64,000 nt of DNA from Desulfomicrobium baculatum DSM 4028 (GTDB taxonomy: Bacteria; Desulfobacterota; Desulfovibrionia; Desulfovibrionales; Desulfomicrobiaceae), in contig NC_013173.1 in the NCBI RefSeq assembly GCF_000023225.1, forward strand, positions 2,482,501 to 2,546,500. The letters run 5' to 3'. The notes under the pieces were generated by a model. It saw only the letters and a program-made list of their open reading frames with translations. It was not told the origin of the DNA and ran no database searches. The position numbers and the translations under genes are program-made. Below, piece by piece: positions 31,001-57,081 of this stretch. The stretch's first letter is position 1; every line of letters starts with the position of its first letter.

Positions 31001-33766
31001 GCCCACGCCTACTGGCGCCTGAAAGGGCTCAAAGTCGATCTGGTCATCTGGAACGAGGATCAGACCGGATACAGGCAGGTCCTCTATGATCAGATCATGG
31101 GCCTCGTCGCGGCCGGGGTCGAATCCGGCGGAACCGAACAGCCCGGCGGGATCTTCGTGCGCTCCGGCAATCGCTTCGCGGAAGAGGACCGCATCCTGAT
31201 CCAGACGGTCGCGCGCGTCGTCATCTCCGACACCCTCGGGACCCTGGCGCAGCAGATCGACGGCCGCACCTTAACGCGCATCAGGATTCCCCAGCTGGTA
31301 CCGAGCAGAACGCATCGCTCCGATCCCCTACCGCTAGCTCCGCAGCCACGCCACGACCTGACCTTTTTCAACGGCCAGGGCGGATTCACTCCGGACGGAC
31401 GCGAATATGTCATCACCACCGCCCAGGACCTTGCCACGCCCGCGCCCTGGGTCAATGTGCTGGCAAACCCGCTCTTCGGGAGCGTCATCTCCGAATGCGG
31501 CGGCTCCTACACCTGGAGCGAGAACGCCCATGAATTCCGCCTCACCCCCTGGGACAACGACCCTGTCAGCGGCGAGGGCGGGGAAGCCTTCTACCTGCGC
31601 GACGAAGAACGGGGGCATTACTGGTCGCCCACGCCGCGCCCTTGCCGCGGAGTGACACCGTATGTGACCAGGCACGGGTTCGGATACAGCGTCTTCGAGC
31701 ATACCGAACGCGGGATCCGCTCGGAACTCATGATCTATGTCGCCCTCGACGCGCAGATTAAATTCTCGGTGCTGAAAGTGTCCAATGTTTCCGAGCGCTC
31801 CCGGCGGATTTCCGCGACCGGATACGTGGAGTGGGTGCTTGGCGACCTGCGTCCGAAATCCGCGTTTCACGTCATCACGGAAATCGACCAGCACAGCGGG
31901 GCTCTGCTGGCGTGCAACCCGTACAATCCCGAATTCGGCACGCGAACGGCGTTTTTCGATGTGGACGACGTCTCCCGCACGATCACCGCCGACCGCACGG
32001 AATTTCTGGGCCGCAGCGGCACGCTCCGAGCGCCCGCCGCCATGACCCGCACCCGCCTCTCCGGCAAGACGGGGACGGCCATGGACCCATGCGCGGCGAT
32101 CCAGGTCGGTTTCGATCTCGAAGTCGGAGAAGAGCGGGAGATCATCTTCAAACTGGGCGTGGGAACCGACGCCACGGACGCGCAGCAGCTGATCCAGCGT
32201 TTCAGGGGCGCGCCCGCGGCGCGGCACGCCCTCGACAAGGTATGGCAGCACTGGGCTCATACCCTCGGGGCCATTCATGTCCAGACTCCCGACCAATCGC
32301 TCAACGTGCTCGCCAACGGCTGGCTCCTGTACCAGACCCTGGCCTGCCGCCTGTGGGCGCGCAGCGCGACCTACCAGTCGGGCGGGGCGTTCGGTTTTCG
32401 CGACCAGCTTCAAGACGTCATGGCCCTTGTCCATGCCAGGCCGGGCCTGGTCCGTGAACATCTCCTGCTCTGCGCCTCCCGCCAATTCGAGGAAGGCGAC
32501 GTGCAGCACTGGTGGCATCCGCCCATGGGCCGGGGCGTGCGCACCAAATGCTCGGACGACTACCTGTGGCTGCCGCTCGCGACGTGCCGCTATGTCGCCG
32601 CCATCGGGGACACCGGCATTTTGGATGAAAGCGTCCCGTTCCTGCGGATGCGCGCGCTCGGTGACGACGAGGAATCCTGCTACGATCTGCCCGAACGCTC
32701 GGACCAGAGCGCCAGCCTCTACGAACACTGCGTGCGGGCCATCCGGCACGGCTTGCGCTTCGGCGTGCACGGGTTGCCGCTCATCGGCTCCGGCGATTGG
32801 AACGACGGCATGAATCTGGTGGGCGAACACGGCAAAGGCGAGAGCGTCTGGCTCGGCTTCTTCCTGCATCATGTGCTCGACGCCTTCGCCACGCTGGCCA
32901 ATGGACGGGGAGACGCCCCGTTTGCCGAAGAGTGCCGGCAGGAAGCCGCCAAACTGAGCCGCATCATCGAAGAGAGCGGTTGGGATGGAAACTGGTACCG
33001 CCGTGCTTACTTTGATGACGGCACGCCGCTGGGTTCAGCGAAAAACGACGAATGCCGCATCGACTCCATCGCTCAGAGCTGGTCCGTGCTCTCGGGGGCG
33101 GGAGACCCCAAACGGGCGCGCACGGCCATGCAGTCCCTGGACAGGCATCTGGTTCGACGCGAGCACGGGCTGGTTCAACTTCTGGACCCGCCTTTCGACA
33201 CGTCCGACCTCAACCCCGGCTACATCAAGGGATATGTGCCCGGAGTACGTGAAAACGGGGGCCAGTACACCCACGCAGCCATCTGGGCTGCCATGGCCTT
33301 TGCCCGTCAGGGGGATACGAAACGCGCCTGGGAGATTTTCGACATGATCAACCCGGTCAACCACGCCCGCACCCCCGAAGAGACGGCCATCTACAAGGGC
33401 GAGCCCTACGTCGTCGCCGCCGATGTCTACGGCGCGCCGCCGCATACGGGCCGTGGCGGCTGGACATGGTACACGGGCTCGGCCGCCTGGATGTATCGGC
33501 TCATCATGGAGTCGCTTCTGGGCCTGAGCCTTGAAGTGGACAGGCTGCGCATCACGCCCTGCCCCCATCCGCAATGGCAGGAATTCACGGTGCACTACCG
33601 CTTCCGGGAAACGGTCTATCACATCACCGTGTCGCAGTTTAAAGGCAAGAAGACCGGCACGCGCCTGACCCTCGATGATGTCGAGCAGACAGGCCAGACC
33701 ATTGCGTTGGTGGACGACCACCAGGAACACTGGGTCAAGGTGCGCATGAACGTGAGCGGTGTTTGA
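25016..33766 (+). CDS. Giant cyclic beta-glucan synthase-like protein (NdvB/Cgs type: GT84 plus GH94)
   Basis: At 2916 residues this matches the size of cyclic beta-1,2-glucan synthases (about 2800-2900). Two membrane helices lie at about 413-482. A GT84 glycosyltransferase domain follows, with TLVVVPTML (about 500), VITLDTDTQ (about 640), LSHDLLEGCYARSG (about 755) and RRHRWIRGDWQ (about 786). More helices lie at about 835-872 and 955-1003. A glucoamylase-like domain occupies about 1050-1600 (FYEAIDYTPTRLPRG). Two GH94-type sugar-binding domains come next, then a GH94 phosphorylase-like domain with GSGDWNDGMN (about 2591-2600). It should make a periplasmic glucan from UDP-glucose, perhaps for osmoadaptation, which fits its stress-gene context. 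Linkage and cyclisation cannot be read from sequence. Confidence 0.9.
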   Translation: MKTTSDIGKSSFSILWTRLTGRGPYDTSIDEELPLRAELFSASQMEQHGKILASMHQLTEKRTHDRLLSRLAENERVLRNVHRLLTEDVKNDRRMTPAGEWLLDNFYVIEEQIRTAAKHLPKGYSRELPQLRGGHSAGLPRVYDLALEAISHGDGRVDPEYLSRFVAAYQTVTSLKLGELWAIPIMLRLALIENLRRVAARLAVRRKERNNADYWANLMTEVAASDPKSLILTIADMARSDPPMTSSFVAELTRRLQGQGPAQSLPLSWIERRLSESGQTIDQLVRLENQQQASDQISISNSIGSLRSLNATNWNDFVESLSTVESILGQDPVSIYAKMNFSTRDRYRHVVEKIAKKCPHSESEVSRKALELAQEGAASQSEQRKGHVGFYLVGDGRAQLERLVQMRRSPAAALCVLGRQFLFYGGGIVLLTAMLTTLLASKAHGDGLSGWQLGLFCLLLVLCCSHLAVSLANWLATLLATPRLLPRMDFSKGIPPEARTLVVVPTMLTSARCVEELANDLEVRFLGNRDRHLHFALLTDLADAAQETMPEDEELVSLARGMIEALNAKYPSDAGSTFFLLHRPRRFNAAEKTWMGFERKRGKLGDLNALLSKGSADAMDRFALIVGDTSILPDIRFVITLDTDTQLARDSARKFVGAMCHPLNRAVYDAARGRVTAGYGILQPRVAISLAGSNRSKYARMCASEVGIDPYTNAVSDVYQDLFGEGSFIGKGIYDVDVFRQALEGRFPDNRILSHDLLEGCYARSGLLSDAELYEQYPSRYSEDVSRRHRWIRGDWQIARWLMPRVPGADGRRYKNPISMLSQWKILDNLRRSLTATALTLLLILGWTVLPAALFWTTVVLGIILIPSLVDSLSNLLKKPDDVSPAQHFAASAGLTLQHLGRTAFTLVCLPYEAYFSLDAILRTIWRMLVTHRGLLEWNPSCNAQSDQAGFAGSLTAMWIGPLLAISVASVLAVSAPQTLPVAGGLLALWLVSPAIVWWISRAIPRRKDALTREQILFLRRAARKTWAFFETFVGPEDQWLPPDNFQEHPAPVVAHRTSPTNMGLALLANLSACDFGIISAGKFLDRTMKTLRTMGTLERYRGHFYNWYDTLTLAPLPPSYISSVDSGNLAGHLLTLKPGLLELAGRKILEPRTFESLRDTLEILAEALKSTPKAAVDPLAGLRLDLNAVNAAPRSEPLTLVASRQRLERLAASATTLIDSLSASGSNSNALWWAGAFAEQCRDALAELTSLAPWAELAIVHKNLPDLPALDRIPTLSELTTLAEAILPDMTRRQETASSLDYNAWGELQSLVTKAGQHAEARIKTCERLALQCGTMAQMEFEFLCDETSHLLAIGYNVSECRRDNSFYDLLASEARLATFVAIAQGQIPQESWFSLGRLLTTAGGEPVLLSWSGSMFEYLMPMLVMPTYESTLLEQTCNASVARQIEYGKKRSVPWGISECGYNAIDVHQNYQYRAFGVPGLGLKRGLAEDLVIAPYASALALMVTPGEACRNLIRLADEGFDTRFGFYEAIDYTPTRLPRGQSSVVVRSFMAHHQGMSLLSMAHLLLDRPMQKRFASDPLFQATMLLLQERIPKTTAFYAHTSELSELQMDSDSGGSHIRVFSRPDTPAPEVQLLSNGRYHVMVTNAGGGYSRWKGLSVTRWREDRTCDNWGTFCFLRDLDTREYWSTAYQPTLKQAQRYEAIFSEGRAEFRVQDHNYDTHTEITVSPEDDIELRRVRITNRARTRRTLDLTSYAEVTLADSASDDLHPAFSNLFVQTEIIPKQQAILCSRRPRSRGEKPPWMLHMMIVHDVRPVDISFETDRMQFLGRENTVAEPLAMSCKGEYFSGALSGSEGSVLDPIVSIRGRIVLEPEESVTLNIISGIAETREETLRLVEKYQDRRIADRVFDLAWTHGQVLLRQLNASEADAQLYGRLAGSVIYANAALRAEPGILIKNRRGQSGLWSHAISGDLPIVLLQIQDIANIELVRQLVQAHAYWRLKGLKVDLVIWNEDQTGYRQVLYDQIMGLVAAGVESGGTEQPGGIFVRSGNRFAEEDRILIQTVARVVISDTLGTLAQQIDGRTLTRIRIPQLVPSRTHRSDPLPLAPQPRHDLTFFNGQGGFTPDGREYVITTAQDLATPAPWVNVLANPLFGSVISECGGSYTWSENAHEFRLTPWDNDPVSGEGGEAFYLRDEERGHYWSPTPRPCRGVTPYVTRHGFGYSVFEHTERGIRSELMIYVALDAQIKFSVLKVSNVSERSRRISATGYVEWVLGDLRPKSAFHVITEIDQHSGALLACNPYNPEFGTRTAFFDVDDVSRTITADRTEFLGRSGTLRAPAAMTRTRLSGKTGTAMDPCAAIQVGFDLEVGEEREIIFKLGVGTDATDAQQLIQRFRGAPAARHALDKVWQHWAHTLGAIHVQTPDQSLNVLANGWLLYQTLACRLWARSATYQSGGAFGFRDQLQDVMALVHARPGLVREHLLLCASRQFEEGDVQHWWHPPMGRGVRTKCSDDYLWLPLATCRYVAAIGDTGILDESVPFLRMRALGDDEESCYDLPERSDQSASLYEHCVRAIRHGLRFGVHGLPLIGSGDWNDGMNLVGEHGKGESVWLGFFLHHVLDAFATLANGRGDAPFAEECRQEAAKLSRIIEESGWDGNWYRRAYFDDGTPLGSAKNDECRIDSIAQSWSVLSGAGDPKRARTAMQSLDRHLVRREHGLVQLLDPPFDTSDLNPGYIKGYVPGVRENGGQYTHAAIWAAMAFARQGDTKRAWEIFDMINPVNHARTPEETAIYKGEPYVVAADVYGAPPHTGRGGWTWYTGSAAWMYRLIMESLLGLSLEVDRLRITPCPHPQWQEFTVHYRFRETVYHITVSQFKGKKTGTRLTLDDVEQTGQTIALVDDHQEHWVKVRMNVSGV

Positions 33767-44717: not shown

Positions 44718-46817
44718 CTACTCCAGATTGCCCGCAAGCGTTGCCGTATTGCCGAAAGGATCCATCAATTCCAGCCTCCACGGCTCCCCCTTGCGCACTT
44801 CCCGCTTGGGGACGAACACGCAGGGCCTGGAGGCAAAGCGTTCGAAGACATGCGTTGCCCCGTTTTCCTCGCCAGCAACGCGGCCAAGGCGCATCTGGGC
44901 CAGGCGGGGCTCATGGGCGCTCGACCCCAAATCCGCCATGACCAGATATCCCTTGCCGCGCTCCGCATCGCGCGCCTGCGCCACGCGCACGTTTTTGTCC
45001 CAAGTCAGGCCGGTCAGGCCCCCCGGCTTTTGCGGTTCAGGCGACAATCGGTACAGAGGATCGCCCACAAAACTGGTGATCCAGCCCAGGTGGACCTGGT
45101 TGCCAAGCAGAATTTCACCCACAGGGCGGCCTTCACGCAGGGCCGGATAAAACACCGCTTCGTCCCAAAAACTGTGGCTGTGTATGTGGGGCGTCTTGCG
45201 CGGGTCGACGCGAGCCGACCCGGCCGTCATCGTCACCCCTTGCCTGAGGAATTCGTGGAATCGCGAATCCTTCATGTTCCAGCCCTGATTCGATTGGACA
45301 AAGGCCCCAATCCCGCCGGGAAGGAACACAGGGCCTGAGTTGAAGAATCCGCTCCCCGGGGCCAGTTTGAAAAGGTCAAGCCGGACCCTGCCTTTGGGGT
45401 GCTGGAACAGATGCCTGTATCCCAGGTCCCAAAACGGCTTGGCCGGAGTCCGGTCACCGATCTCTCCGACGCGTTCCGGGGTTTTTAAGAGAGTCACATC
45501 CGCAAGCATGCCCATTTCCGGGCCCGCATGCCTGGATGCATAGACGGCCCGGTCCACCAGTTCCATGGCTTCAAGGGGTGTCTGTCCGTCGATGCGCATG
45601 GCGAAAAAGAGGTGGCGATCCGGGCGCAGGGCCCTTCGCGCTGATGTGAACCGGGGCGAACCCAGCCCGGCCTTATTCCCGCCTTTGCTGTAGGCCGCAG
45701 GGTGCACGAACGGATTTATATCCGCCCCTTCGAGCGGCATGGACATTCGCGTGCGGAATATAATATTCGTGAATGCGCTTTTCTTTGGAGCCGGAGCAAA
45801 GCGCATCGGCTGGACCTCACTTTGGTGCAGGCTCTCGAAATCGTAGTACATGAGCTGGAGTCGCTGACACAAATCAATCGCAGATCCATAATCGCGCAAC
45901 TGCGGGCCGACCCCGGTGGCAATGCCGTACGGAGCCGCAACGGTGCGGGGCAGCCCATGACAAACAACGATGTACAGGACATGATCCTTCAGCAGGGTTC
46001 CGTCGGGCCGCGCATTGGCGGGGTCTTCCAGAAACGCCTTGATCGGAGCCTCCACCAGATCCAGATACTTCCGGTCGTCACGGATTCCGTCGAGGCCCGT
46101 GGCACTCCATGACGCCTGCAGAATGTCCTTGTACTCGGCGCTCCACTCATGAACATCGCCCTGAACATTCCCGCATCGGGCCTTGGCCGTAAATGTCCCC
46201 TTTATGAAAAGCCCGCCCAGAGCCCTGATCTGCCAATCCCCGTCATGCCGGACCCGCACCTTGTCGGGATAAAGGCTTGCGCCATTCTCGACGAGCAGGA
46301 AGCGTGCGCGGTTTGAACTGTCGTCGGACGCGATCTCAAGCCGCAGGGTGCCTGGGTCCCACGGAACCTCGGACTTGGGCAACACCACCTCCACCATGCG
46401 GCTGTCCCGCATCTCGCAGGCGGACACGGAACGTTTCGAATCATGGGGCTGATAAACCACCCCGCAACCGTTATCGCTGCTGGGTTCCTCCAGATGATCG
46501 CCGAGGAGGAGGCTTTTTGACGACCGGTCATCCGTCAGTCCCAGCAGATAGGGTCTCTCCCCGGTGACCGGGTCGGTATGCATCCGCGCATAATGCTCGG
46601 CGACCGCCAGGGAATCCTGAGCTGCAGAAACAAGGGGATGCCGCGCTCGCAAGTCCGCATTGTAAAGGACGAGGACCTGCGAGGGCGACACCCCGGCCGG
46701 GGACCCGGCAAACGCCACGCCTCGGCAGAAAATAAACGCGCACAGGAAAAACAGGAACGCGGCGGACAGGCGGCATGAAATCTGGAGCCAGGCAAGCCTT
46801 GATATATCCATGTGCAT
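44718..46817 (-). CDS. Exported protein resembling the exosortase-associated TIGR03790 family
   Basis: A 699-residue protein is obtained from the ATG at 46817. Another ATG at 46811 is possible. The open frame extends to 47168, but that part overlaps epsI. A signal peptide is visible (LSAAFLFFLCAFIFCRGVAFA). The mature start VLVLYNADLRARHP, then AVAEHYARMH, and later DHVLYIVVCHGLPRTVAAPYG, match the TIGR03790 pattern, whose members occur only in genomes with exosortase. No enzymatic role is known, and no PEP-CTERM-type tail is present. It lies between epsI and prsK. Confidence 0.7.
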   Translation of the reverse strand: MHMDISRLAWLQISCRLSAAFLFFLCAFIFCRGVAFAGSPAGVSPSQVLVLYNADLRARHPLVSAAQDSLAVAEHYARMHTDPVTGERPYLLGLTDDRSSKSLLLGDHLEEPSSDNGCGVVYQPHDSKRSVSACEMRDSRMVEVVLPKSEVPWDPGTLRLEIASDDSSNRARFLLVENGASLYPDKVRVRHDGDWQIRALGGLFIKGTFTAKARCGNVQGDVHEWSAEYKDILQASWSATGLDGIRDDRKYLDLVEAPIKAFLEDPANARPDGTLLKDHVLYIVVCHGLPRTVAAPYGIATGVGPQLRDYGSAIDLCQRLQLMYYDFESLHQSEVQPMRFAPAPKKSAFTNIIFRTRMSMPLEGADINPFVHPAAYSKGGNKAGLGSPRFTSARRALRPDRHLFFAMRIDGQTPLEAMELVDRAVYASRHAGPEMGMLADVTLLKTPERVGEIGDRTPAKPFWDLGYRHLFQHPKGRVRLDLFKLAPGSGFFNSGPVFLPGGIGAFVQSNQGWNMKDSRFHEFLRQGVTMTAGSARVDPRKTPHIHSHSFWDEAVFYPALREGRPVGEILLGNQVHLGWITSFVGDPLYRLSPEPQKPGGLTGLTWDKNVRVAQARDAERGKGYLVMADLGSSAHEPRLAQMRLGRVAGEENGATHVFERFASRPCVFVPKREVRKGEPWRLELMDPFGNTATLAGNLE

Positions 46818-46834
46818 ACGCCCCCCCGAAATTC

Positions 46835-47467
46835 CTAGTTTGGCAAAAAATCGCGAATGACCGGATAGAAATCCCGCAGGAAATCTTCGATCTGCTGCTC
46901 CGCCGCCTCCTGGGCGCCATCTCCCTGCACGGAAATTCTCATGAAGCTCTGATCCCGGCGGCGGTGAAACATGGAACCCGTGATCTCGGCAAGCTTCAGG
47001 GAAAACTCGTCCGACATGGTCCTGCCGCGCATGGAGAACCAGTAGTAGATGACCTCCCGCTTGTTGCCCATGGCGTACACGGCCCGGGCCAGGTTGACCG
47101 CTTCCCCGCCCAGATCCAGCGTGGTGTGCGTGGAGGATATTTCCGTCCAGCCGCCGCCCGGCAAACAATGCTTGGGCGAGTGAATCCTGCCCGCATCGGG
47201 GCCGCCGTTGAAAAAGCTCAAATACATGTCGACGCTTGATCCGTCCTCTCTGGCATAGCGCCGGGAGAGGTAGTCCGTCGGCATGAGCACTTTGAGGATG
47301 TTTTCGCCGAGGTTTGCCTGCCCGATCATGCGCCAGCCCTCATGGCTGGCCGGGAACTCCCCGAAGGGCCGCCCCAGGGGCACTTCGAGATCGCGGTGAT
47401 AGCCCATGTATATCCCGGCTCCGGCCAAAAGAAGCATTATGAAAATAAAACGGAAGCGAATATTCAT
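46835..47467 (-). CDS. epsI: Exosortase-associated protein EpsI
   Basis: The 210-residue protein has one N-terminal membrane helix (FIFIMLLLAGAGIYMGY) and a periplasmic domain with the family motif HSPKHCLPGGGW and a later YYWFSMRGR segment. ATG 47467 is chosen because AAGAGG precedes it and it overlaps the exosortase stop as ATGA. In other systems EpsI is either fused to the exosortase C-terminus or adjacent, as here. It is needed for exopolysaccharide in Methylobacillus-type loci. Confidence 0.88.
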   Translation of the reverse strand: MNIRFRFIFIMLLLAGAGIYMGYHRDLEVPLGRPFGEFPASHEGWRMIGQANLGENILKVLMPTDYLSRRYAREDGSSVDMYLSFFNGGPDAGRIHSPKHCLPGGGWTEISSTHTTLDLGGEAVNLARAVYAMGNKREVIYYWFSMRGRTMSDEFSLKLAEITGSMFHRRRDQSFMRISVQGDGAQEAAEQQIEDFLRDFYPVIRDFLPN

Positions 47468-48297
47468 GACCACCTCTTGAGTGCTGCGCCCAGGGCCACG
47501 AACATGACCACCGCTGCGAAAAAGACGAAGAATCCCGCGAATTCATGAAAAAATCCTTCGGCTGCCGCCGCTCCGAAATATTGGGCCAGAACCCCCGTGG
47601 CGATGACCCGCAAACAGTTGGTGAAGACCGCGATAGGCAGGGTGGAGCCGATGAGCACCACCCGGTCCCGGACCGAGGAATGCAGCACGAAGGCGTATGC
47701 CGTGCCCAGGGCCAGCAGGGACATGATGGAGCGCAATCCGCTGCAGGCATCCGCCACTTCAAGGGTGATGTTCGGGAACATGAGGATGTTGCCTTCCTGC
47801 CAGATGACGATGCCCATGGCTTTCAAGGCCAGGACCGAAACCTTGGTCACAAAGAGCTTCAGCGGAAAGGCGGCGGCGTCGTAGATGATGTAGGGGATCG
47901 GGATCATGAGCAGCAGATAGGCCAAAGGGGCAAGGAGAATCCCAAAAATCCTCCAGCCCAGGATATAGAGCACCGATCCCGCGATGATGACCACCAACGA
48001 GGCGCGCATGGTGAAGTATTCCGTGCCCAGCCAGCCGAAAAGAAGCATGGCCAGCCCGAAGAGGACGAGCCCCATGCCGGACTCGGCAGGCTTGACCTCC
48101 GCCTCCAGGAGATCGTCCCGACGCATGTAGGCCAGGTACCCGGCGATGAAGGGCACGAGAAAGCCGTGCGAGTAATTGTCGTCGGCAGCCCACTGCCTGA
48201 CCATGGGGACGACGATCGGCCAATAGACGACCCCGGCGGCAACGGCCAGAAAAACAACCCAGATGATCAGATTCTTTTGATTCTTCAAGAGTTCCAT
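47464..48297 (-). CDS. Exosortase (XrtA/EpsH-like membrane transpeptidase)
   Basis: The 277-residue protein has about eight membrane helices. The catalytic residues expected for exosortases are present: Cys in VADACSGLRS (about 184), Arg in TNCLRVIATG (about 226), His in EGFFHEFAGF (about 247). Exosortases process C-terminal PEP-CTERM-like sorting tails of exported proteins and occur with exopolysaccharide genes. The PrsK/PrsR pair nearby favours the XrtA type, but the VPLPA-specific XrtD type also occurs in deltaproteobacteria. I found no protein with a sorting tail in this window. Confidence 0.9.
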   Translation of the reverse strand: MELLKNQKNLIIWVVFLAVAAGVVYWPIVVPMVRQWAADDNYSHGFLVPFIAGYLAYMRRDDLLEAEVKPAESGMGLVLFGLAMLLFGWLGTEYFTMRASLVVIIAGSVLYILGWRIFGILLAPLAYLLLMIPIPYIIYDAAAFPLKLFVTKVSVLALKAMGIVIWQEGNILMFPNITLEVADACSGLRSIMSLLALGTAYAFVLHSSVRDRVVLIGSTLPIAVFTNCLRVIATGVLAQYFGAAAAEGFFHEFAGFFVFFAAVVMFVALGAALKRWS

Positions 48298-48338: not shown

Positions 48339-49511
48339 CTACTCCCAAACTCCGTCCAAAGCCTCCCGATGCGCGCCCCGTCCGACCAGGCTGCGCACCT
48401 TGCGCGCGGCCTGACAGGCGGCCCAGCCTGCCAGGGGAAAAGGATCGAGCAACTCGAAATCATCCATGGCCGCGAATCCGGCCAACACCGCGTCCGGCCG
48501 CGCGGCGCTGGATCCGGACAAAAATGCGTGGGCTTTTCTCATCATGTCGCCGCCCAGCCACCGCGTGGCGACGACCGGCGGGTTCAGGGGCGCACTGAAG
48601 TCGTTCTCGCCCATGGCACATTTGTAATAGTAGTAGGGAAAATCTATGCCCCGGGCGATGCTCTGCCCGACCGAGCCCCAAAAGCGCGGATTGACGTCGA
48701 TGAGAAAACTCTTGCCCCGGACCTCGTCATGAAGAAAGTCCGCCTGACACGGCCCGGTCCAGCGCAAATCATCGAGGATGGTCTTCATCGCCGCCGTGGC
48801 ATCGGGAAAATCCCGGCTGACCCGGACCGTCGGCTGGCCATACGGATGGGGATAGGTCTGCACGGTCCAATATGAGTCCGCAGCGACCAGGGCCCCGTCG
48901 CGGTAGAGCATGGCCACTCCCGCAATGGGACCTTCGATTTTCTCCTGAACGAGATAGCGCTCCGGAAGCACGTCAAACTGCTCTGTCATGCCCCGCAGGG
49001 CAGTCATGTCGTGCACCTCCATCACCGACCACCCGCCCCCGCCCTGCTTGGGCTTGAGGACGGCAGGGAAATGAAAATCGGACGGCAAGCCTGAAGTCAT
49101 TGCGTCTTCGAGTTCCACGGTCAGGGGCATGCTCACCCCGAGACGCTCCGCAATGTTTTTGAGAGAGCGCTTGTCGTGCAGACTGATGAGATCCGTGTAC
49201 TGCGCCATGAAGATGCGCACATGAGGGGCAAGGACGGCGCGATGACGCGCCACGAAATAGGTTTCTTCCAGCACAGGGATAAGAACGTCGATTTTCTCCT
49301 TGTCGATGATCCGAAGGAGGTCTTCGACAAAGCGGGCCTCATCCAGAAAGGGCGAAGCGTACACATGTCTGCCGGCGGCATGGCGCGACCAGAATGACAT
49401 GGCCAGCGGATCGGAATCCGCCATGACCGCCTGGATGCCATGGCGACTTAAATTCTTACAGATGCAGTAGGCAACACGAGTGCTGGCCGAAGTGATGAGT
49501 GCGCGTCCCAC
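48339..49511 (-). CDS. ATP-grasp family enzyme
   Basis: The 390-residue protein starts at GTG 49511 (GGAG six bases upstream). A Rossmann-like head (ALITSASTRVAYCICKNLSR) precedes the ATP-grasp core. The core has the FPAVLKPKQGGGGWSVMEV nucleotide loop, the LVQEKIEGPIAGVAMLYRDG strand pair and the metal/ATP site FLIDVNPRFWGS. It is similar to carbamoyl-phosphate-synthase-like ATP-grasp proteins that ligate an acyl phosphate to an amine or thiol. The substrate is unknown. In this context it may attach an amino acid or acyl group to a sugar or lipid intermediate (inference). Confidence 0.87.
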   Translation of the reverse strand: MGRALITSASTRVAYCICKNLSRHGIQAVMADSDPLAMSFWSRHAAGRHVYASPFLDEARFVEDLLRIIDKEKIDVLIPVLEETYFVARHRAVLAPHVRIFMAQYTDLISLHDKRSLKNIAERLGVSMPLTVELEDAMTSGLPSDFHFPAVLKPKQGGGGWSVMEVHDMTALRGMTEQFDVLPERYLVQEKIEGPIAGVAMLYRDGALVAADSYWTVQTYPHPYGQPTVRVSRDFPDATAAMKTILDDLRWTGPCQADFLHDEVRGKSFLIDVNPRFWGSVGQSIARGIDFPYYYYKCAMGENDFSAPLNPPVVATRWLGGDMMRKAHAFLSGSSAARPDAVLAGFAAMDDFELLDPFPLAGWAACQAARKVRSLVGRGAHREALDGVWE

Positions 49512-49555
49512 AGTATCTCCATTCTACACATTGAGATTAATTTTAAGCGCACTAT

Positions 49556-50350
49556 TCATGAAGCTATCTTCCTTGCCAAAGAATTCTTCATGGACTTGAG
49601 AAAAGAGAAAGTGCGCGAATTCTTATCAAAATAATTTTTGGGCTTTGAATAATAATTCAAAAAATACATACATTTTCCATACGGGCCGAGCCTGTCTCCA
49701 AGACCCTTCACATATGTATTCTTACAAGGATTACATGTTCCGCACGGCTTGGAGAAAAACGTTGGACGATGACAAAACCATGACAAATTCAGTATATCCG
49801 CAAAATCGTGTTCTGCCGCTATTCTTCGCATGTCCACTTTATAAATGTCCGTTATCGCGAAAGCAAAATAATGAAAAAGATCGTAGACAGGCGTTCCTTT
49901 AAATTTTGCATCGATACCGCGATATCCCTTTTCATCTTCGGATAAATAATTTGCAATGACGGAACGACAGCCGACAACCGAATCAGAACGTTCAATAACC
50001 AGCTCAATTTCCGACAGGCCGAACTGATCGGCCCAGATGGACAGCCACTCGTATTGTCCACCCAGTCTCTCTTTAAGTCCGTCATAACATACGGATAAAT
50101 GCAGATTTTCGCCCACATCGGTTTTGTCAAAATAGAGTGTCGGCAACAGAAGAGCACTCAATTCAGGATATTTTTGTTTCAAGGTACGCTTGATGTTGCT
50201 CATCGCCTTGAACTCATGAACAAGAGACCAGCGGAACGGATCAATTATATAAAATGTCTGCACGGGACATTTCTCCACCACGACAAGGTAAAGCACTCTG
50301 AATGTCGAGTCCCACCCGCCAGTCCATAATACTTTTTTAACTTCACTCAT
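49556..50350 (-). CDS. QueC-like PP-loop ATPase
   Basis: This 264-residue protein has an N-terminal pyrophosphatase loop (VLWTGGWDSTFRVL, residues 8-21) and a C-terminal cysteine cluster. The cluster is CHRPTFFSKPCGTCNPCKNT, the zinc-binding arrangement of 7-cyano-7-deazaguanine synthase (QueC). QueC turns a carboxyl group into a nitrile via an amide, using ATP. No other queuosine gene is in the window, and the gene lies beside an asparagine-synthase-like gene in a polysaccharide locus. A different substrate is therefore likely (inference). A GAAGAGGG ribosome site precedes the ATG. It is clearly A+T-rich compared with neighbours. Confidence 0.75.
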   Translation of the reverse strand: MSEVKKVLWTGGWDSTFRVLYLVVVEKCPVQTFYIIDPFRWSLVHEFKAMSNIKRTLKQKYPELSALLLPTLYFDKTDVGENLHLSVCYDGLKERLGGQYEWLSIWADQFGLSEIELVIERSDSVVGCRSVIANYLSEDEKGYRGIDAKFKGTPVYDLFHYFAFAITDIYKVDMRRIAAEHDFADILNLSWFCHRPTFFSKPCGTCNPCKNTYVKGLGDRLGPYGKCMYFLNYYSKPKNYFDKNSRTFSFLKSMKNSLARKIAS

Positions 50351-50391
50351 TGATCCCTCTTCACCAGTATAGAACTGATAATTTCAGCATT

Positions 50392-52209
50392 TTACCAAAA
50401 TTTAACCCATCTATTCTTAACAAGCCGCAGCACTATCTCCACAGTAAACATTTTCGTAAACATATGGCCACTTTTGTCCCCACTGAGCAATTCCATCAAA
50501 TTCTTCTTGGAAACATATTTTGATATCTCAAGATCATGACCGTGAAAAAACTCATCGATCCATGCTCCACAATCATTATTCAGCCATGTTTCCCAATCTT
50601 CGAGCGGGACCTGATTTATTTCCTTATTCAATGTATTGCGAATCTTATGGTTAACCCGGTACAGGAAGTGAAAAAAATCTCCCGCCAGGACAAACTCGGG
50701 ACGCGCGCTGACAATGGGTATTTTTGCAAGGTGAGGAGCTTTTTTCGCCAGCAGATAGGACTGCATGACCATTTCGCAGCGCGAGCCGCGACTATGCTCG
50801 GGCAAAAACTGGGAATAGCTCAGCATGCTGAGCTCCGAAGCAAAACCGTACTCAATGATTTTCGTATCGTATGCAGGAACTCGCCACGTGGTGAAGTTAT
50901 CCGCAATTTTCATTTCCCCGCCAAAATATCTCGCGCCGATCATGTACAAGCTATATGAAAAATGATGTGCGCTGGACGTAAAACTCCCGAATCTATCAGC
51001 AAGTAAACAGTTTGTTTCTACAATATGATCCGAGAAATGACCAAGGTCATCTTCAAATACTTCACTCCATGAACCATTTTGAAATTCTGATGTCTTGCCT
51101 TCAAAGAGGTCGTATACGTCTGGAGAAGTCAAGGGATGCCATCCAGCATGTCCACGCAGCGCACCCAAGGCAACACCGCTCAGGGTAAGAGGATATTTCG
51201 TCCCATTTTGCGTTATCGAGCGATACACGTGCAGCAATGTGGCCCGTTTCACCCCTTGTGTTCCGGAAGACACATAAACAGTGTCCAGCATAAGCTCAGG
51301 CAAACCGGCTACGAATTCCTGACCAAACAAAATTTCCTTGTGCGACGTTCCGGCGCTGTGGGCCACTCTTGCCGCACGGATCAGATCCGACGTACCGGGA
51401 ATTCCGTAGGTGTAGGTTGTCAAGTCCGCACCGGCCGGCTTGAAACCAAGCACCGTCCGTGCATCCCAACCGGCGGTGATGGGGCACGCCATTTTTGTAT
51501 CTTCAAAATAAAGCGGGAATCTTTCCGAAAAAACGTCCAGGGCAGCTTCCAGTGCCTTTTCTTTCTTGAGAAGCGGCGTATGCACCTTGAATTCCGATGC
51601 ATATGTGAAAATTTTGTGCACAATTGAATCTTGCAGCGAAAACTTCATCACCGTGCCTGCAGAAGCTCTGGTTACACCTTCCAAAAAACTTACGTTGGAG
51701 ACAGGGAAATTGTAATATAAAAATTCCCATATCCATTTCTTGCTGATATTAAACGCATCCAGCTTGCAAAACGACGAGACCTCAGACCCTATATACAATT
51801 TCCCAGAATCAACCCCCCAGTAAATGGAATATTGGCTTCTTCTGTCGGTCACGACAAACACTTCATTTTCAAGATTATTTACTGCGATTATCCCGTACAT
51901 ACCCTCGAATTTGGATAATTCATAAAATGACTCCCTGCTGAGAGCATCGGATATGATCTCAATATGATTCGAAGGAATATCAACCACATCCCCTATTATG
52001 AATATCTTCCATTTCGAATTTTCATAAAAAATTGAATACTTCATTTCCGGCGAAGGAGTTTTGCCAATTCTGATGCGAAAATTCTTTCCGATGAAGCTTG
52101 AAAGTGTGCGCGTCCGACAAGGATTCAATGTTTCATCGACATCCAGAAAAAGAGAATCCTGATTCAAACATTCTTCATTGCATCCAAAGCAACTAAAAAA
52201 TGAGGACAT
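50392..52209 (-). CDS. Asparagine synthase-like protein with degenerate active sites
   Basis: The protein has 605 residues from ATG 52209 (GAGG upstream). A GTG at 52215 is the alternative. Residues 1-200 resemble the glutaminase-like half of asparagine synthase (FEGMYGIIAVNNLENEVFVV, then TDRRSQYSIYW). However, the N-terminal nucleophilic Cys-2 is absent (MSSFFSCFG), so glutamine hydrolysis is not expected. The synthase half has a PP-loop-like CPITAGWDARTVLG in place of SGGLDSS. Similar proteins occur in polysaccharide and peptide-modification loci and form amides or lactams. Together with the QueC-like gene, 41 bp downstream, it makes an A+T-rich pair. Confidence 0.82.
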   Translation of the reverse strand: MSSFFSCFGCNEECLNQDSLFLDVDETLNPCRTRTLSSFIGKNFRIRIGKTPSPEMKYSIFYENSKWKIFIIGDVVDIPSNHIEIISDALSRESFYELSKFEGMYGIIAVNNLENEVFVVTDRRSQYSIYWGVDSGKLYIGSEVSSFCKLDAFNISKKWIWEFLYYNFPVSNVSFLEGVTRASAGTVMKFSLQDSIVHKIFTYASEFKVHTPLLKKEKALEAALDVFSERFPLYFEDTKMACPITAGWDARTVLGFKPAGADLTTYTYGIPGTSDLIRAARVAHSAGTSHKEILFGQEFVAGLPELMLDTVYVSSGTQGVKRATLLHVYRSITQNGTKYPLTLSGVALGALRGHAGWHPLTSPDVYDLFEGKTSEFQNGSWSEVFEDDLGHFSDHIVETNCLLADRFGSFTSSAHHFSYSLYMIGARYFGGEMKIADNFTTWRVPAYDTKIIEYGFASELSMLSYSQFLPEHSRGSRCEMVMQSYLLAKKAPHLAKIPIVSARPEFVLAGDFFHFLYRVNHKIRNTLNKEINQVPLEDWETWLNNDCGAWIDEFFHGHDLEISKYVSKKNLMELLSGDKSGHMFTKMFTVEIVLRLVKNRWVKFW

Positions 52210-52280
52210 ATGCACCTCGCTCTATACAAGCATCAATTTTCAATCCAGATCTTTCGTGTAAACTCATGTCCTGCCTACTC

Positions 52281-54554
52281 TCATTGCGGAAGATAGGGAC
52301 CTTCAAACACCCCCTGTCCAAAGGTCGTGACAATGATCCGTGTCATATCCGCAGGATCAAAATTAATGCTTTGCACCGTTGCAGCAGGAAATTCCGAATA
52401 ATGCCGCCAAGTCGCCCCGCCATCCTGGCTGTAGAGCAATCCGTTCCTGGAAGTACCGGCATAAACCAACCGGGAATTTTGAGGATGAAGGGCCACAGCC
52501 ATGGTCTGTTCATAGCTCTCCCCCCGGGCCGCTTTTTGAATCATCTCGTCGGTCAGGACATGCGCCCAGGAGCCTCCGCCGTCCGTCGTCTTGTATATGC
52601 CGCCCTGCATCCAGTGCCCTTCCGAAGACCCGGCCGAGACGTACATCACGTCTTCGTTTTCAGGGTCCCAGGCGAAATTCGTGGTCCACCAGACAAGGTT
52701 GACGCCACTACTGATTGGCTTCCATGTTTCGCCACCATCCGTCGACTTCCAGACGCCGCCTGGAGCCGTGAAATAATTATTCTTGGAGCGCAGCCCTGTG
52801 ATGAGGCAGTACAAATTTCCGCTCTTCGGATGCATGCGTAACCTGTAGATATGCAGATTTGGCGCAACGCCCGGGCCCGGCGAAATTTTTGCCCACGACG
52901 TTCCTCCATCAACGGACTTGTACACACCCGCTTCGTCATCATCGCCTTCCCCGTAGATTCCGGCGTAAAGAATCCGCCTGTCCGTAGGCGACTTCGGATC
53001 GAGAAGCACCGTAGTGCAGACCTGCTTGGGCAACCCGGAGGAGCTGCCCGGCTTGTAGGGAACCTGCCAGCTCAGGCCGCCGTCCGTGGATCTGACCACC
53101 CCGCCCTGATGCCCCCGATATCCCGATTTGGTAACCGAAAGATTGGAGTGGTGCGGAATGTCGTGACGGGCGCTCACCGCCGCGTACAGTACGTCCGACA
53201 CATCCGGATCGATGGCCAGATCATAGAACGTGTTCCTCCAGGGCGAACCCTGCGCCGTCCATTGCCAGCTTTTTCCGCTGTCCGGCGACCTGGCGAACCC
53301 GATGTCCGTGTAGGTGATGTAATGTCTGGCCGGGTGATGGGGGTCGAAATGATAGCCCCAGGCGCTGGTCACCTCCAGCCCGATACTCTGGTAATGCGCC
53401 GACTTCTCCGGCCCAACGGCAACCTCTGTGGCCATGCGCGGATGCCATGTCTCTCCTCCGTCCCGGGTGCGATACAGTTCGCCCTGCGTGACGAGAAAGG
53501 CTTCCTCGGGTTTTCGCGGATTGACCGCAAAACCCTTGGGCGAGATCAGATAACTCCATTTCAGGGAGTCCTGAATCCAGGTCGGTTCCACATTCGCCTT
53601 CCAGCCGTATTTGCGGGCGAAATCGGCCATCCTGAAACTCGGGCTCCAGCTTTGACCGCCGTCAATGGAACGGAGCAGGTTGATGTTGACGTTTGATCCG
53701 GTCTGGGCGGCATAGACGACATCGATCTGCCCGGGGGCCATGACAAGGTGATTTTCGCCCCCATAGGGTGAATGCGCGAGGGCCCAGCTCGACCCTTGGT
53801 CCGTGGAGCGGATGATGCCGAACTTGTGCAGACTGGCCACCATGAGCGAACCTTTTTCCGACACCGCGCCAGTAAGCCCCATGGCAGGGTGCCCCTTGAT
53901 TGCCCGCCCGTCGACGACCACGGGAGACGTCGTCCACGTCTGGCCCCGGTCACGGCTGCGTGCGACAACATCCGGATCCGCCATGGCGCAGAGGACCTCG
54001 CCAAGGATGACGGTCTCGGTTGTTTGCCGGTCCAGCACTATTTTCCAGGTCGCGCAGTCGTCATCAGTACGCCACAGCCCGCCCTTCGTGCCGACGAGAA
54101 GAACATCCGGCGAGCCGGGAATCGCGGTCAGGTGCAAAATCGCTTCTTTCCCCCAGGGCATGCCGTCCACCTTGGGCCACGAGCGTCCCTGGTCCGTGCT
54201 GACCCGCAGTGCGGTCTTCCCCGACCGCCAATAGATGCGATCCTTGAAGAACACCGGGGGCGTGGAGAACTGCATGAAGCGAAAGCCCTGGGTGTAATGG
54301 ATCAGTTCCCACCGCTCGCCGCCGTCTTCCGAGCGGTACGCGCCGCCCATGTCGGTGACCAGAAACATGAGCCCCTCGTCGTATGGAGAGATGGAGAGGA
54401 CGTACATTCCGCCCCCGCCGCCAATGCCACGCGGGGAAAACACTCCCGTATTCACCGTTGCAAACGATGACGGCGCGGACATGCCCATGATGACGAACAC
54501 GGCCCAGAACATCAGGCCATACGCTGCGCATTCGCCATGCTTTCTCTCTTCCAT
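52281..54554 (-). CDS. Exported beta-propeller protein, GH74/sortilin-like (BNR repeats)
   Basis: A 757-residue protein is obtained from ATG 54554, which overlaps the deacetylase stop (TAATG). It has an N-terminal membrane/signal helix (GLMFWAVFVIMGMSAPSSFA). The mature start, GIGGGGGMYVLSISPYDEGL then TDMGGAYRSEDGG, closely recalls GH74 xyloglucanases, including the Asp in the TDxGGAYR motif that serves as catalytic base there. Many Asp-box repeats (SxDxGxxW) follow, giving two beta-propellers. It may cut or bind the exopolysaccharide during export. A non-enzymatic VPS10-like role is the alternative. Confidence 0.75.
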   Translation of the reverse strand: MEERKHGECAAYGLMFWAVFVIMGMSAPSSFATVNTGVFSPRGIGGGGGMYVLSISPYDEGLMFLVTDMGGAYRSEDGGERWELIHYTQGFRFMQFSTPPVFFKDRIYWRSGKTALRVSTDQGRSWPKVDGMPWGKEAILHLTAIPGSPDVLLVGTKGGLWRTDDDCATWKIVLDRQTTETVILGEVLCAMADPDVVARSRDRGQTWTTSPVVVDGRAIKGHPAMGLTGAVSEKGSLMVASLHKFGIIRSTDQGSSWALAHSPYGGENHLVMAPGQIDVVYAAQTGSNVNINLLRSIDGGQSWSPSFRMADFARKYGWKANVEPTWIQDSLKWSYLISPKGFAVNPRKPEEAFLVTQGELYRTRDGGETWHPRMATEVAVGPEKSAHYQSIGLEVTSAWGYHFDPHHPARHYITYTDIGFARSPDSGKSWQWTAQGSPWRNTFYDLAIDPDVSDVLYAAVSARHDIPHHSNLSVTKSGYRGHQGGVVRSTDGGLSWQVPYKPGSSSGLPKQVCTTVLLDPKSPTDRRILYAGIYGEGDDDEAGVYKSVDGGTSWAKISPGPGVAPNLHIYRLRMHPKSGNLYCLITGLRSKNNYFTAPGGVWKSTDGGETWKPISSGVNLVWWTTNFAWDPENEDVMYVSAGSSEGHWMQGGIYKTTDGGGSWAHVLTDEMIQKAARGESYEQTMAVALHPQNSRLVYAGTSRNGLLYSQDGGATWRHYSEFPAATVQSINFDPADMTRIIVTTFGQGVFEGPYLPQ

Positions 54555-55762
54555 TATTCGTGACACGATTCGTCCCTCACCCGCCCAAGCATGGCTATCT
54601 TCATTTTTTCCCAGTTTTCGACCGCGAGCTTCCCGCCTCCCCGAAAGAGCCGCGCCAGGCGGCTTCCGCCCCGCACCTCCTCCAGAAACAGCGGCAGCAG
54701 CCACGGACCGAGATAGCGAAACCCCATGCGCCCCTCGACCCCCGGAGGCCCTACGCGGGAAAAGCGGAAACACCCCTTCGCGTCCAGGGCCGCCGGCCGG
54801 AGCCGTTCCCGAGACCCGACGGTGGTGCCGACATAGTACTCGGCGGCCGCGTCAAACACTTCCTCAGTGTAACCACCTCCCGGCCAGCAGAAGAAATCGA
54901 TCTTCTTGCCCAGGTTTTCCTCCAGTACGGTTTTTGAGTCCGCGAGCTCCCGGCGCACCCGCAGCATGAATTCATCATGGGTCTCCAGCCCGGTGCGCGT
55001 GCAGGTTTTCATCAGTTCTTCAGCCTTGGCGCGCAGCTCGTCTCTCCAATCCGGCCGGTCGAAAAACGACCGTCCCCGAGCGGCCGCAAATTCACGCAGC
55101 GCCTGTCCGACGCGTTCATCAGGATAGTAAACAGGGCCATCCATGGATTTGGCGTGTTCATACACCGGCTCGCCCCAGACGCCCGGATCGGATTTGAAAT
55201 CCAGATAGCGCCACTTGTCTGCGGGCGAAGCGTTCCAGTCCATCCAGTAGTGCGTATCGCCCGGGTGACGAAAATCCACGATCCCGGGCCCGCAAGGATA
55301 CCAGGTGTGCGTGATCCCGTGGGACTGAATCTCCATGACACCGCTCTGCTCCAGGGCGCGCATCTCGCTCCAGGAGAGAAAACCGGCGCCTGGCAGACGG
55401 GCGCTGTCCGGACGCAGCGGATCAAACTGGGGCCGTGGCTCGCTCGCGGGATCGACGAAATCGGTTGAAGCGAAAATCGTGGCGCAAAAGCCGTGTTTTT
55501 TGAGCAGCGGCGCAGCATAGACCCAATTATCCAGATACCCGTCGTCAAAAGTCAGGGACACGACCCGCTCCTGGCCAAGACGCCCGGCCAGGGCGATGTC
55601 CATGTACTCGCGCAGGAAAACCGACCGATAGCCGAAACGCCGCAGCGCGCGAAGCTGGGCGTCGAAGAGCTGCCACGGAACCGTGAGGAAACTCCAGGCC
55701 CAGCGTCTGTCAGGCACGCCCACGGTATGAAACATGACGGAACTGGTTCCAGGACGAGACAT
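54554..55762 (-). CDS. Polysaccharide deacetylase family protein (NodB-like)
   Basis: The 402-residue protein carries the NodB core: SLTFDDGYLDNW (catalytic and metal Asp), the metal-binding IQSHGITHTWY (HxxxH), and a late DFFCWPGGGYTEEV. No signal peptide is seen, so it may act in the cytoplasm or on a membrane-linked intermediate. The central 100 residues (WMDWNASPADKWRYLDF to about 270) are an insertion relative to the smallest family members. It overlaps CapK by one base and the propeller gene by one base. It probably removes N- or O-acetyl groups from the polysaccharide. Confidence 0.88.
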   Translation of the reverse strand: MSRPGTSSVMFHTVGVPDRRWAWSFLTVPWQLFDAQLRALRRFGYRSVFLREYMDIALAGRLGQERVVSLTFDDGYLDNWVYAAPLLKKHGFCATIFASTDFVDPASEPRPQFDPLRPDSARLPGAGFLSWSEMRALEQSGVMEIQSHGITHTWYPCGPGIVDFRHPGDTHYWMDWNASPADKWRYLDFKSDPGVWGEPVYEHAKSMDGPVYYPDERVGQALREFAAARGRSFFDRPDWRDELRAKAEELMKTCTRTGLETHDEFMLRVRRELADSKTVLEENLGKKIDFFCWPGGGYTEEVFDAAAEYYVGTTVGSRERLRPAALDAKGCFRFSRVGPPGVEGRMGFRYLGPWLLPLFLEEVRGGSRLARLFRGGGKLAVENWEKMKIAMLGRVRDESCHE

Positions 55763-57081
55763 TACTGCACCTCGCAGACGATATACCTGTGTTTTCCACC
55801 GATTGTGCGTGGGATTTCATCCACAAAGCGGACCCGCAGCCGGATCTCGCCCCCGTGATCATGTGCGACGCATTGCGGCAAGGCATTGAGCTGCCTCATG
55901 GACTCTTCGCTCACGCCTTCCTTGCATTTGACCAGCAGTTCCACCTCTCCGGACACCGATTGCCTGAACTGGAATGAAAGAACGCCCTCTATCTCTTTGA
56001 TGATCTTGACAAAATATGCGCCGTGAATCTTGCCCCCGCCTGCGGCGAGCATGTAGTCATAGATGCGGCCGATATCCATGCGGATGAGGGGAAAGCCCCG
56101 GCCACAGGGACAGCCATGGGAGAGCGGGGTCGCGTAATCGCCGATCTCGTAGCGCAGGAGCGGCATGGTCCGATTGGTGAGGCCGGTCACGACCAGACGC
56201 TTCAGTTCCGAACCCGCCTCGGGCAGGAACTCGGCATAGGCCGAATGCGTCAAAAGGTGCATGCCGCCGTGCTCGCACTCCACGGCGATGCACGGCACCT
56301 CCCTGCTCCCGTACTGGTCGTGGACCCGGCACCCGAACGCCTGCGCGATGAGGGCGCGCTGATGGTCATGGAGTTTCTCCGCCGAGGTCATGACTGCGCA
56401 CACGCTCGAAGGCTTGCGTCCGCAGGCCAGGATGTGTTCGGCCAAATCGCTCAAAACCGAGACATAGCCGTACACGAAGACCCTGCGAAAACGCGCCAGA
56501 ACCCCCAGCCAATCATCCATTTCCTTGCGCCCGTAGCGGTAGGCGCTCAAGGTCATGGATCCTGAAAGCCATTGCTTCAGGTCCACCGACGGCCGCGCAG
56601 TCCCCTTATCCCTTGGATTGCCCCAGATGTTGACGATCATGTCGGAGGGCTTCCACCCGGCAAAGGAAAGCCCGAGCATGAAGCTGCCCTGCATGGCATC
56701 GAACACGTCCATGTCCTGATAAAATCTGACAGGTTCCCCGGTGGACCCCCCGGTGGCGTTGTCCACGCGGCGTGACCCGTTCGATGCGGAGGACAACATG
56801 CGCGGCAGGTTCTCGCGCAGATCCTGTTTTAAAAGAACCGGCAGACAGGCAAAATCTTCAAACGTCCTGATCTCGCTCGCCTTGAGGCCGTGCGCACGAA
56901 AAAGGTCCTGATAGAACGGCACCGTGCGGGCGGCATGCTGGACCACCTGGACAAGCCGGGCCAGTTGCCGCCGCCGCAATTCCTCCACGGGCAGCCGTTG
57001 CAGGGTGATGCCTTCACGCATGAGCGCATAGCGCCTGCTTCCGCGCAGGGTATGCATTGCCTGGCGCACAAGACCTATCAT
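55762..57081 (-). CDS. CapK/PaaK-like adenylate-forming enzyme
   Basis: The protein has 439 residues. Phenylacetate-CoA-ligase-like features are the ATGGSTGEPVRF phosphate loop (about residues 110-120), the HDQYGSREVPCIAVEC motif, and the PLLRYEIGDYATPL motif with the conserved Asp. The gene family is common in capsule and exosortase loci (CapK), where it is thought to activate an acid for transfer to sugar. The substrate is unknown. It overlaps the upstream glycosyltransferase by four bases. Confidence 0.88.
   Translation of the reverse strand: MIGLVRQAMHTLRGSRRYALMREGITLQRLPVEELRRRQLARLVQVVQHAARTVPFYQDLFRAHGLKASEIRTFEDFACLPVLLKQDLRENLPRMLSSASNGSRRVDNATGGSTGEPVRFYQDMDVFDAMQGSFMLGLSFAGWKPSDMIVNIWGNPRDKGTARPSVDLKQWLSGSMTLSAYRYGRKEMDDWLGVLARFRRVFVYGYVSVLSDLAEHILACGRKPSSVCAVMTSAEKLHDHQRALIAQAFGCRVHDQYGSREVPCIAVECEHGGMHLLTHSAYAEFLPEAGSELKRLVVTGLTNRTMPLLRYEIGDYATPLSHGCPCGRGFPLIRMDIGRIYDYMLAAGGGKIHGAYFVKIIKEIEGVLSFQFRQSVSGEVELLVKCKEGVSEESMRQLNALPQCVAHDHGGEIRLRVRFVDEIPRTIGGKHRYIVCEVQ

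Follow-up and report, generated by a model that had tools for sequence, protein, structure and literature searches.

The question raised by a 64,000-nucleotide stretch of Desulfomicrobium baculatum DSM 4028 (NC_013173.1, positions 2,482,501 to 2,546,500; the window, whose own numbering is used here) is what 3 adjoining genes for ATP-using enzymes do beside the exosortase gene of an exopolysaccharide (EPS) locus. They encode an asparagine-synthetase-like (AsnB-like) ligase, a relative of QueC, and an ATP-grasp ligase. We read them, at a probability of about 0.5, as a variable cassette for amide formation within an XrtA-type EPS locus, one that would put amide substituents on the exopolysaccharide; the substrates, the order of the steps, and the glycan as target are what we infer. 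An earlier note, made from the letters alone, had reported 3 consecutive genes of this kind, and the run is real: all 3 open reading frames (ORFs) are intact and follow one another in the same orientation on the minus strand, with transcription running from 52215 to 48339, in one series with the exosortase gene.

50392 to 52215, minus strand: AsnB-like ligase (P0003), 607 amino acids, from the ORF call and a match to asn_synth_AEB at E = 1.8e-11; guanine-plus-cytosine (GC) content 0.44.
49556 to 50350, minus strand: QueC-like PP-loop ATP pyrophosphatase (P0002), 264 amino acids, from motifs and an AlphaFold2 model; GC 0.42.
48339 to 49511, minus strand: ATP-grasp ligase, PylC/ATP-grasp_3-like (P0001), 390 amino acids; GC 0.61.
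49500 to 52250, no strand: low-GC island over the AsnB-like and QueC-like pair, GC 0.38-0.49 against ~0.60 on both sides.

The AsnB-like ORF starts at 52215, and the ATG at 52209 is two codons inside it. Gaps of 41 and 44 bp separate the 3 genes, with 41 bp to the exosortase gene and 65 bp to the beta-propeller gene upstream. The gene order is conserved in 2 congeneric genomes (L010, L011), and all 3 genes are under purifying selection, with dN/dS (nonsynonymous over synonymous substitution rates) of 0.10-0.19 among 3 congeners. In single-sequence Pfam searches, ATP-grasp_3 is barely over its cut-off, QueC reaches E = 0.11 only, and Asn_synthase and GATase_7 stay slightly under theirs, so that the 3 gene names rest on remote similarity.

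A single inherited trio was considered and is rejected, because base composition and genome distribution split the set into a pair plus the ATP-grasp gene. The GC dip covers ~49.5-52.2 kb of the window. Third-position GC is 0.48 for the AsnB-like gene and 0.44 for the QueC-like gene, whereas total and third-position values are locus-like for the ATP-grasp gene (0.61/0.73), the exosortase (0.59/0.79), and the propeller (0.60/0.70). Low GC is common to both pair genes in the window and in 2 congeners. Of 297 genomes from the order, 6 contain an AsnB-like orthologue (E below 1e-220, the next best being 1e-68), and all 6 are among the 8 genomes with a QueC-like gene (hypergeometric 3e-11; 0.002 when counted by genus). 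In 2 genomes of another family (L013, L014), the pair is adjacent yet convergent, with host-like GC. Strong homologues of the P0001 ATP-grasp occur in 9 genomes, 9/9 with an exosortase and 5/9 with the pair (3.7e-7, kinship uncorrected), and one congener (G014; L114) has the ATP-grasp gene near an exosortase with the pair absent. Hence, the AsnB-like and QueC-like genes were probably gained together, and the ATP-grasp gene is resident in exosortase loci independently of them. Of the co-occurrence that the earlier note wanted surveyed, the pair holds (6/6) and a fixed trio does not.

For the QueC-like protein, homology is settled by family-level profiles rather than by the window protein alone. 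Pattern matches across 84,980 species genomes contain at least 147 relatives, of which 80 loci were retained, from Bacteroidota, Bacillota, Pseudomonadota, Nitrospinota, Planctomycetota, and others, where they are found alone or in tandem arrays. Four such arrays (L033, L035, L040, L042) hold 3-4 divergent copies, as if there were one substrate per copy. One candidate relative (L009/L017, in G287) was a chance frame match and was dropped. PF06508 is matched at E <= 0.1 by 76 of 78 relatives (best 1.3e-8), and hhalign joins the family profile to true QueC at 96.3%, E = 1.5e-9. The AlphaFold2 model has a predicted local distance difference test (pLDDT) score of 95.1, and by VIA-align its nearest solved folds are Cap9 (Z = 12.1), QueC (3bl5; 10.5), YcfA (10.4), and QatC (9.8). 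Foldseek with the same model gives no Protein Data Bank match below 1e-3, and the ranking of the same candidates is clearer with VIA-align. By profile and fold, the protein is a QueC homologue. The QatC sequence model itself touches only 5/78 family members, with a best E = 8e-4.

The motifs indicate what has been kept and what has been lost. In the window protein, they are a TGGWDST loop at 10-16, Y34..D37..R40.S42...E46, GGQYEWL at 97-103, and a Zn site C193 x9 C203 x2 C206 x2 C209. Near-invariant in the family are the TGGWDST loop, E46, Q99, Y100, K171, and the 4 Zn cysteines; conservation of 2 of these stretches, the TGGWDST-type one in part, is inflated by their use as search patterns, which the Zn site was not. 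The phosphate loop reads TGG[WF]DS in 90/102 sequences against the canonical SGGxDS in 3/102, and is likely a conservative variant that still serves ATP use. All 4 Zn cysteines are present in 100/102, with a spacing of 7-13; the first gap is x8 in 43, as in the QueC site C(x)8CxxCxxC, and x9 in 51, including the window. The motifs YxQxHxxE, VPxRN, and YPDC are each found in 0/102. A 2026 survey ties these 3 to preQ0 formation (PMC13329287), and in Cap9 and QueC the deazaguanine is bound by YPDC through its Tyr and Asp (PMC13279940). Since the ATP site is kept and the residues that hold 7-carboxy-7-deazaguanine (CDG) are missing, the enzyme likely activates a carboxylate with ATP, and that carboxylate is unlikely to be CDG.

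Could the protein nevertheless be the genome's preQ0 synthase, a QueC replacement for queuosine? The earlier note had pointed to this as one fact that would undo its proposal, and half of it seems to stand: no other QueC is found in the genome, TGT is present, and so is a PTPS/QueD-family gene. QueE is absent as well, though, a congener's QueE used as query having no match here and having matches in 3 genomes of the same genus (G058, G034, G024), so the genome cannot make QueC's substrate. Those same 3 genomes carry true QueC (~1e-61) and QueE together with the QueC-like orthologue. The enzyme is thus no substitute for the preQ0 pathway and does not rely on it, and, with all 3 motifs that preQ0 formation is reported to require (PMC13329287) absent, a preQ0 synthase is already contradicted, rejected as a candidate and left with next to no weight. 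The QueC-like enzyme probably has a part in decorating slime polysaccharide rather than making a tRNA base.

As to the other 2 proteins, P0003 belongs to the Asn-synthetase fold family with a [ST][AG]G[WF]D[AS]R pyrophosphate loop, in which G249 and D251 (the Asp of SGGxDS) are invariant. Its N-terminal glutaminase-like domain starts (V)HMSSFF and has no Cys nucleophile, nor is there an MC start in P0003 or its 5 orthologues. Because the glutaminase cysteine is absent, the nitrogen donor of the ligase should be an amine or ammonia in free form. Its AlphaFold model, from 4 sequences, came out at pLDDT 42 and was not used. The ATP-grasp protein keeps K153, Q189, D258, N274, and R276 (DxNPR), with K153, D258, N274, and R276 invariant.

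The amide-type chemistry that had been assigned to the 3 enzyme families is supported, and a mechanism may be sketched from it. The core would be the two-gene module of AsnB-like ligase and QueC-like ATP pyrophosphatase, placed next to an ATP-grasp ligase that was already resident. The QueC-like enzyme would adenylate a carboxylate other than CDG and form an amide from it with ammonia or an amine, possibly going on, as QueC does, to a nitrile in a second step. The AsnB-like enzyme would adenylate a second carboxylate and couple it with either an amine or free ammonia, and the ATP-grasp enzyme would join carboxylate and amine through an acyl phosphate, so that the repeat unit would end up with an amide-linked substituent.

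The setting in an exosortase EPS locus, also proposed earlier, is borne out by marker genes, all over NCBIfam cut-offs, of a full XrtA-type locus: exosortase A, EpsI, PrsR, PrsK, PrsT, the TIGR03013 XrtA EpsB-type glycosyltransferase, FemAB, and the XrtA deacetylase. A flippase, glycosyltransferases, acetyltransferases, and a PaaK-like ligase are interspersed among them. All 8 genomes with a QueC-like gene have an exosortase, against 85/297 in the order overall, and in 7/8 the QueC-like gene is within ~30 kb of it. The genes flanking the 3 in question are these.

46835 to 47473, minus strand: EpsI (TIGR02914).
47464 to 48297, minus strand: exosortase (TIGR03109 XrtA, 213.6 bits, cut-off 208).
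52281 to 54773, minus strand: BNR/sortilin beta-propeller, F510_1955-like, by family match; the first gene upstream of the three.
54554 to 55762, minus strand: polysaccharide deacetylase (Pfam).
55762 to 57081, minus strand: PaaK/CapK-like AMP-forming ligase, by family model match.

The sortilin/BNR propeller gene recurs in exosortase loci even where the pair is missing (L113). That related locus (L113:7423-13966) also has 2 ATP-grasp genes adjoined by a LysA/TIGR03099-like decarboxylase and a FemAB-like gene, an arrangement that hints at an amine produced on site. Elsewhere in the window, a long ORF at 44718-47168, between EpsI and PrsK, has a weak TIGR03790 match only and is well conserved in congeners, and 25016-33766 holds an ORF of 2916 amino acids. 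Beyond it, 3 PEP-CTERM signals are found at 2572592-2576236 of the same contig, ~26-30 kb past the window end, and there is a second exosortase gene at 2940492. Plasmid and phage collections gave no match, and hence no sign of plasmid or phage carriage.

The neighborhood of the QueC-like relatives across phyla can be asked whether amide ligases keep them company more widely. A hidden Markov model (HMM) census of 84 loci places an ATP-grasp gene within 300 bp (<=300 bp) of the QueC-like gene in 14/84, at 0.283 per kb versus 0.003 per kb at 4-10 kb, densities that are biased upward because the seeds were picked from neighbors. A fairer control is a Pfam scan of 150 immediate neighbors versus 130 neighbors at position 4. 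The TupA ATP-grasp is the commonest family among the immediate neighbors (8), with ST ATP-grasp at 4; neither reaches 2 at position 4, where glycosyltransferases lead. Taking the worst case of 2 there, the enrichment has a Fisher value of 0.011, a modest effect, some of the loci being related. Altogether, 4 ATP-grasp types are found near relatives: TupA-like, ST-type, RimK-type, and ATP-grasp_3. In Lysobacteraceae (L066, L071, L074, L077, L080, L081, L083, L093), the QueC-like gene has a conserved neighbor on the opposite strand, which in L081, the only one scanned, is a haem-oxygenase-like iron enzyme (PF14518). It is tempting, if rather doubtful, to see a widespread and undescribed QueC branch (TGGWDST...GxQYxWL...WFCHxP) that works with a neighboring ATP-grasp or AsnB-like ligase to furnish surface polysaccharides with a carboxamide, a substituted amide, or even a nitrile, so that QueC chemistry would have moved from a base to a glycan.

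Several observations weigh against the amide cassette. No uronate-forming enzyme is recognized in the EPS locus. The ATP-grasp gene is ~11 kb from the pair in G231 (L115; same EPS locus) and in G173 (one contig), and G024 has no ATP-grasp gene and an AsnB-like gene with host-like GC. A glycan gene is within ~10 kb in 37/84 loci and none of the glycan-gene markers, which were built from the same data, is there in 47/84; many relatives adjoin housekeeping genes, and for both reasons the general role of the family need not be glycan modification. A rival reading has 2 or 3 decorating enzymes that work independently within one modular locus, modify different groups, and have no common pathway. The ATP-grasp gene has its own distribution and base composition, the QueC-like gene in G114 (L015) has neither partner nearby, and relatives elsewhere stand alone; but the AsnB-like gene is never without the QueC-like gene in the 297 genomes, and ATP-grasps of several families recur as immediate neighbors, so we consider independence possible but unlikely.

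What the QueC-like enzyme acts on admits 2 further proposals, both of them improbable. Amidine synthesis on an N-acetyl sugar would make it a counterpart of WbpG, an N-sugar amidotransferase of O-antigen loci in the same superfamily (PMC13329287), and ammonia use is typical of QueC. It has, however, no match to the NCBIfam models of such enzymes (E <= 1), its Zn site is the QueC-type C(x)9CxxCxxC rather than the CxxC(x)6CxC given for the WbpG cluster, and no HisH/HisF-like partner was noticed among the annotated genes. The other would turn the chemistry on a PEP-CTERM/exosortase protein or another protein N-terminus, in a conjugation like that of Cap9 and QatC. Cap9 is the nearest fold and attaches CDG to the N-terminal glycine of a protein (PMC13279940), and PEP-CTERM proteins are in the genome; yet with no QueE there is no de novo CDG, and the CDG-holding YPDC is absent in 102/102 relatives. 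The amide cassette is the reading carried forward.

Protein modification by QueC-fold enzymes in phage defense is a recent finding, which raises the question of what other roles the fold has. The present branch, in at least 147 genomic places and many phyla, without CDG-recognition residues and with tandem arrays or with amide-ligase neighbors in glycan loci, is a concrete new target for that question. If it acts on glycans, bacteria would have a new means of attaching nitrogen groups to their slime, and a so far unassigned portion of exosortase loci would be accounted for. The earlier note knew of no described pathway with this combination. In the papers searched, we find none combining exosortase, asparagine synthase, and ATP-grasp, nothing relevant on a QueC-like protein with exopolysaccharide, and nothing on this QueC branch, whose members may be included in one or another minor cluster of the 2026 survey (PMC13329287). 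For the combination with this branch, the claim holds in those papers, and part precedents exist in AsnO/Ngg, the TupA-like ligases, and WbpG.

QueC takes an acyl adenylate with ammonia to an amide and then to a nitrile. The window protein is like QueC (PF06508) in its fold, PP-loop, Zn cysteines, P-x(5)-K region, and profile homology. It is unlike QueC in that its family has T for the first S of SGGxDS, W or F after GG, and none of the 3 preQ0 motifs, and in its C-terminal helical extension, its glycan and exosortase context, and the lack of any queD/queE link that we could see. Cap9 (type IV CBASS) and QatC (Qat) are, like this branch, QueC-fold ligases moved off base synthesis. Cap9 uses a protein amine in place of ammonia (PMC13279940) and, unlike our family, retains YxDC-type CDG residues. 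CD-NTase or QatA/B/D partners were not recognized in the window or in the neighbor family counts, no dedicated search having been made.

The WbpG-type N-sugar amidotransferase, which the 2026 survey places in its cluster 5 (PMC13329287), shares the QueC superfamily, a surface polysaccharide locus, and ammonia-type chemistry, but has another cysteine motif and loop and gives no family match. The TupA-like C-terminal ATP-grasp domain of Cj1438 from Campylobacter jejuni is likewise an amide ligase of a capsule locus, joining an amine to capsule glucuronic acid and so amidating it (PMC11800379), whereas the window ATP-grasp is ATP-grasp_3/PylC-like and not TupA. AsnB-like enzymes make amides and lactams, with one example yielding a nitrile (PMC13060819). 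TIGR03108, the XrtA-system amidotransferase, is also AsnB-like and found in exosortase loci, but P0003 scores only 18.7 against its cut-off of 816.9 and has no N-terminal Cys. Ngg contains an ATP-grasp domain, and AsnO/Ngg, which makes N-acetylglutaminylglutamine amide, is the part precedent for an Asn-synthetase-like enzyme and an ATP-grasp-containing ligase yielding a dipeptide amide (AsnO is cited in PMC13060819). It differs in having no QueC member and a free osmolyte as product, and the window proteins do not match its NCBIfam models (E <= 1). Set beside these systems, the new element is the QueC branch and its gene company.

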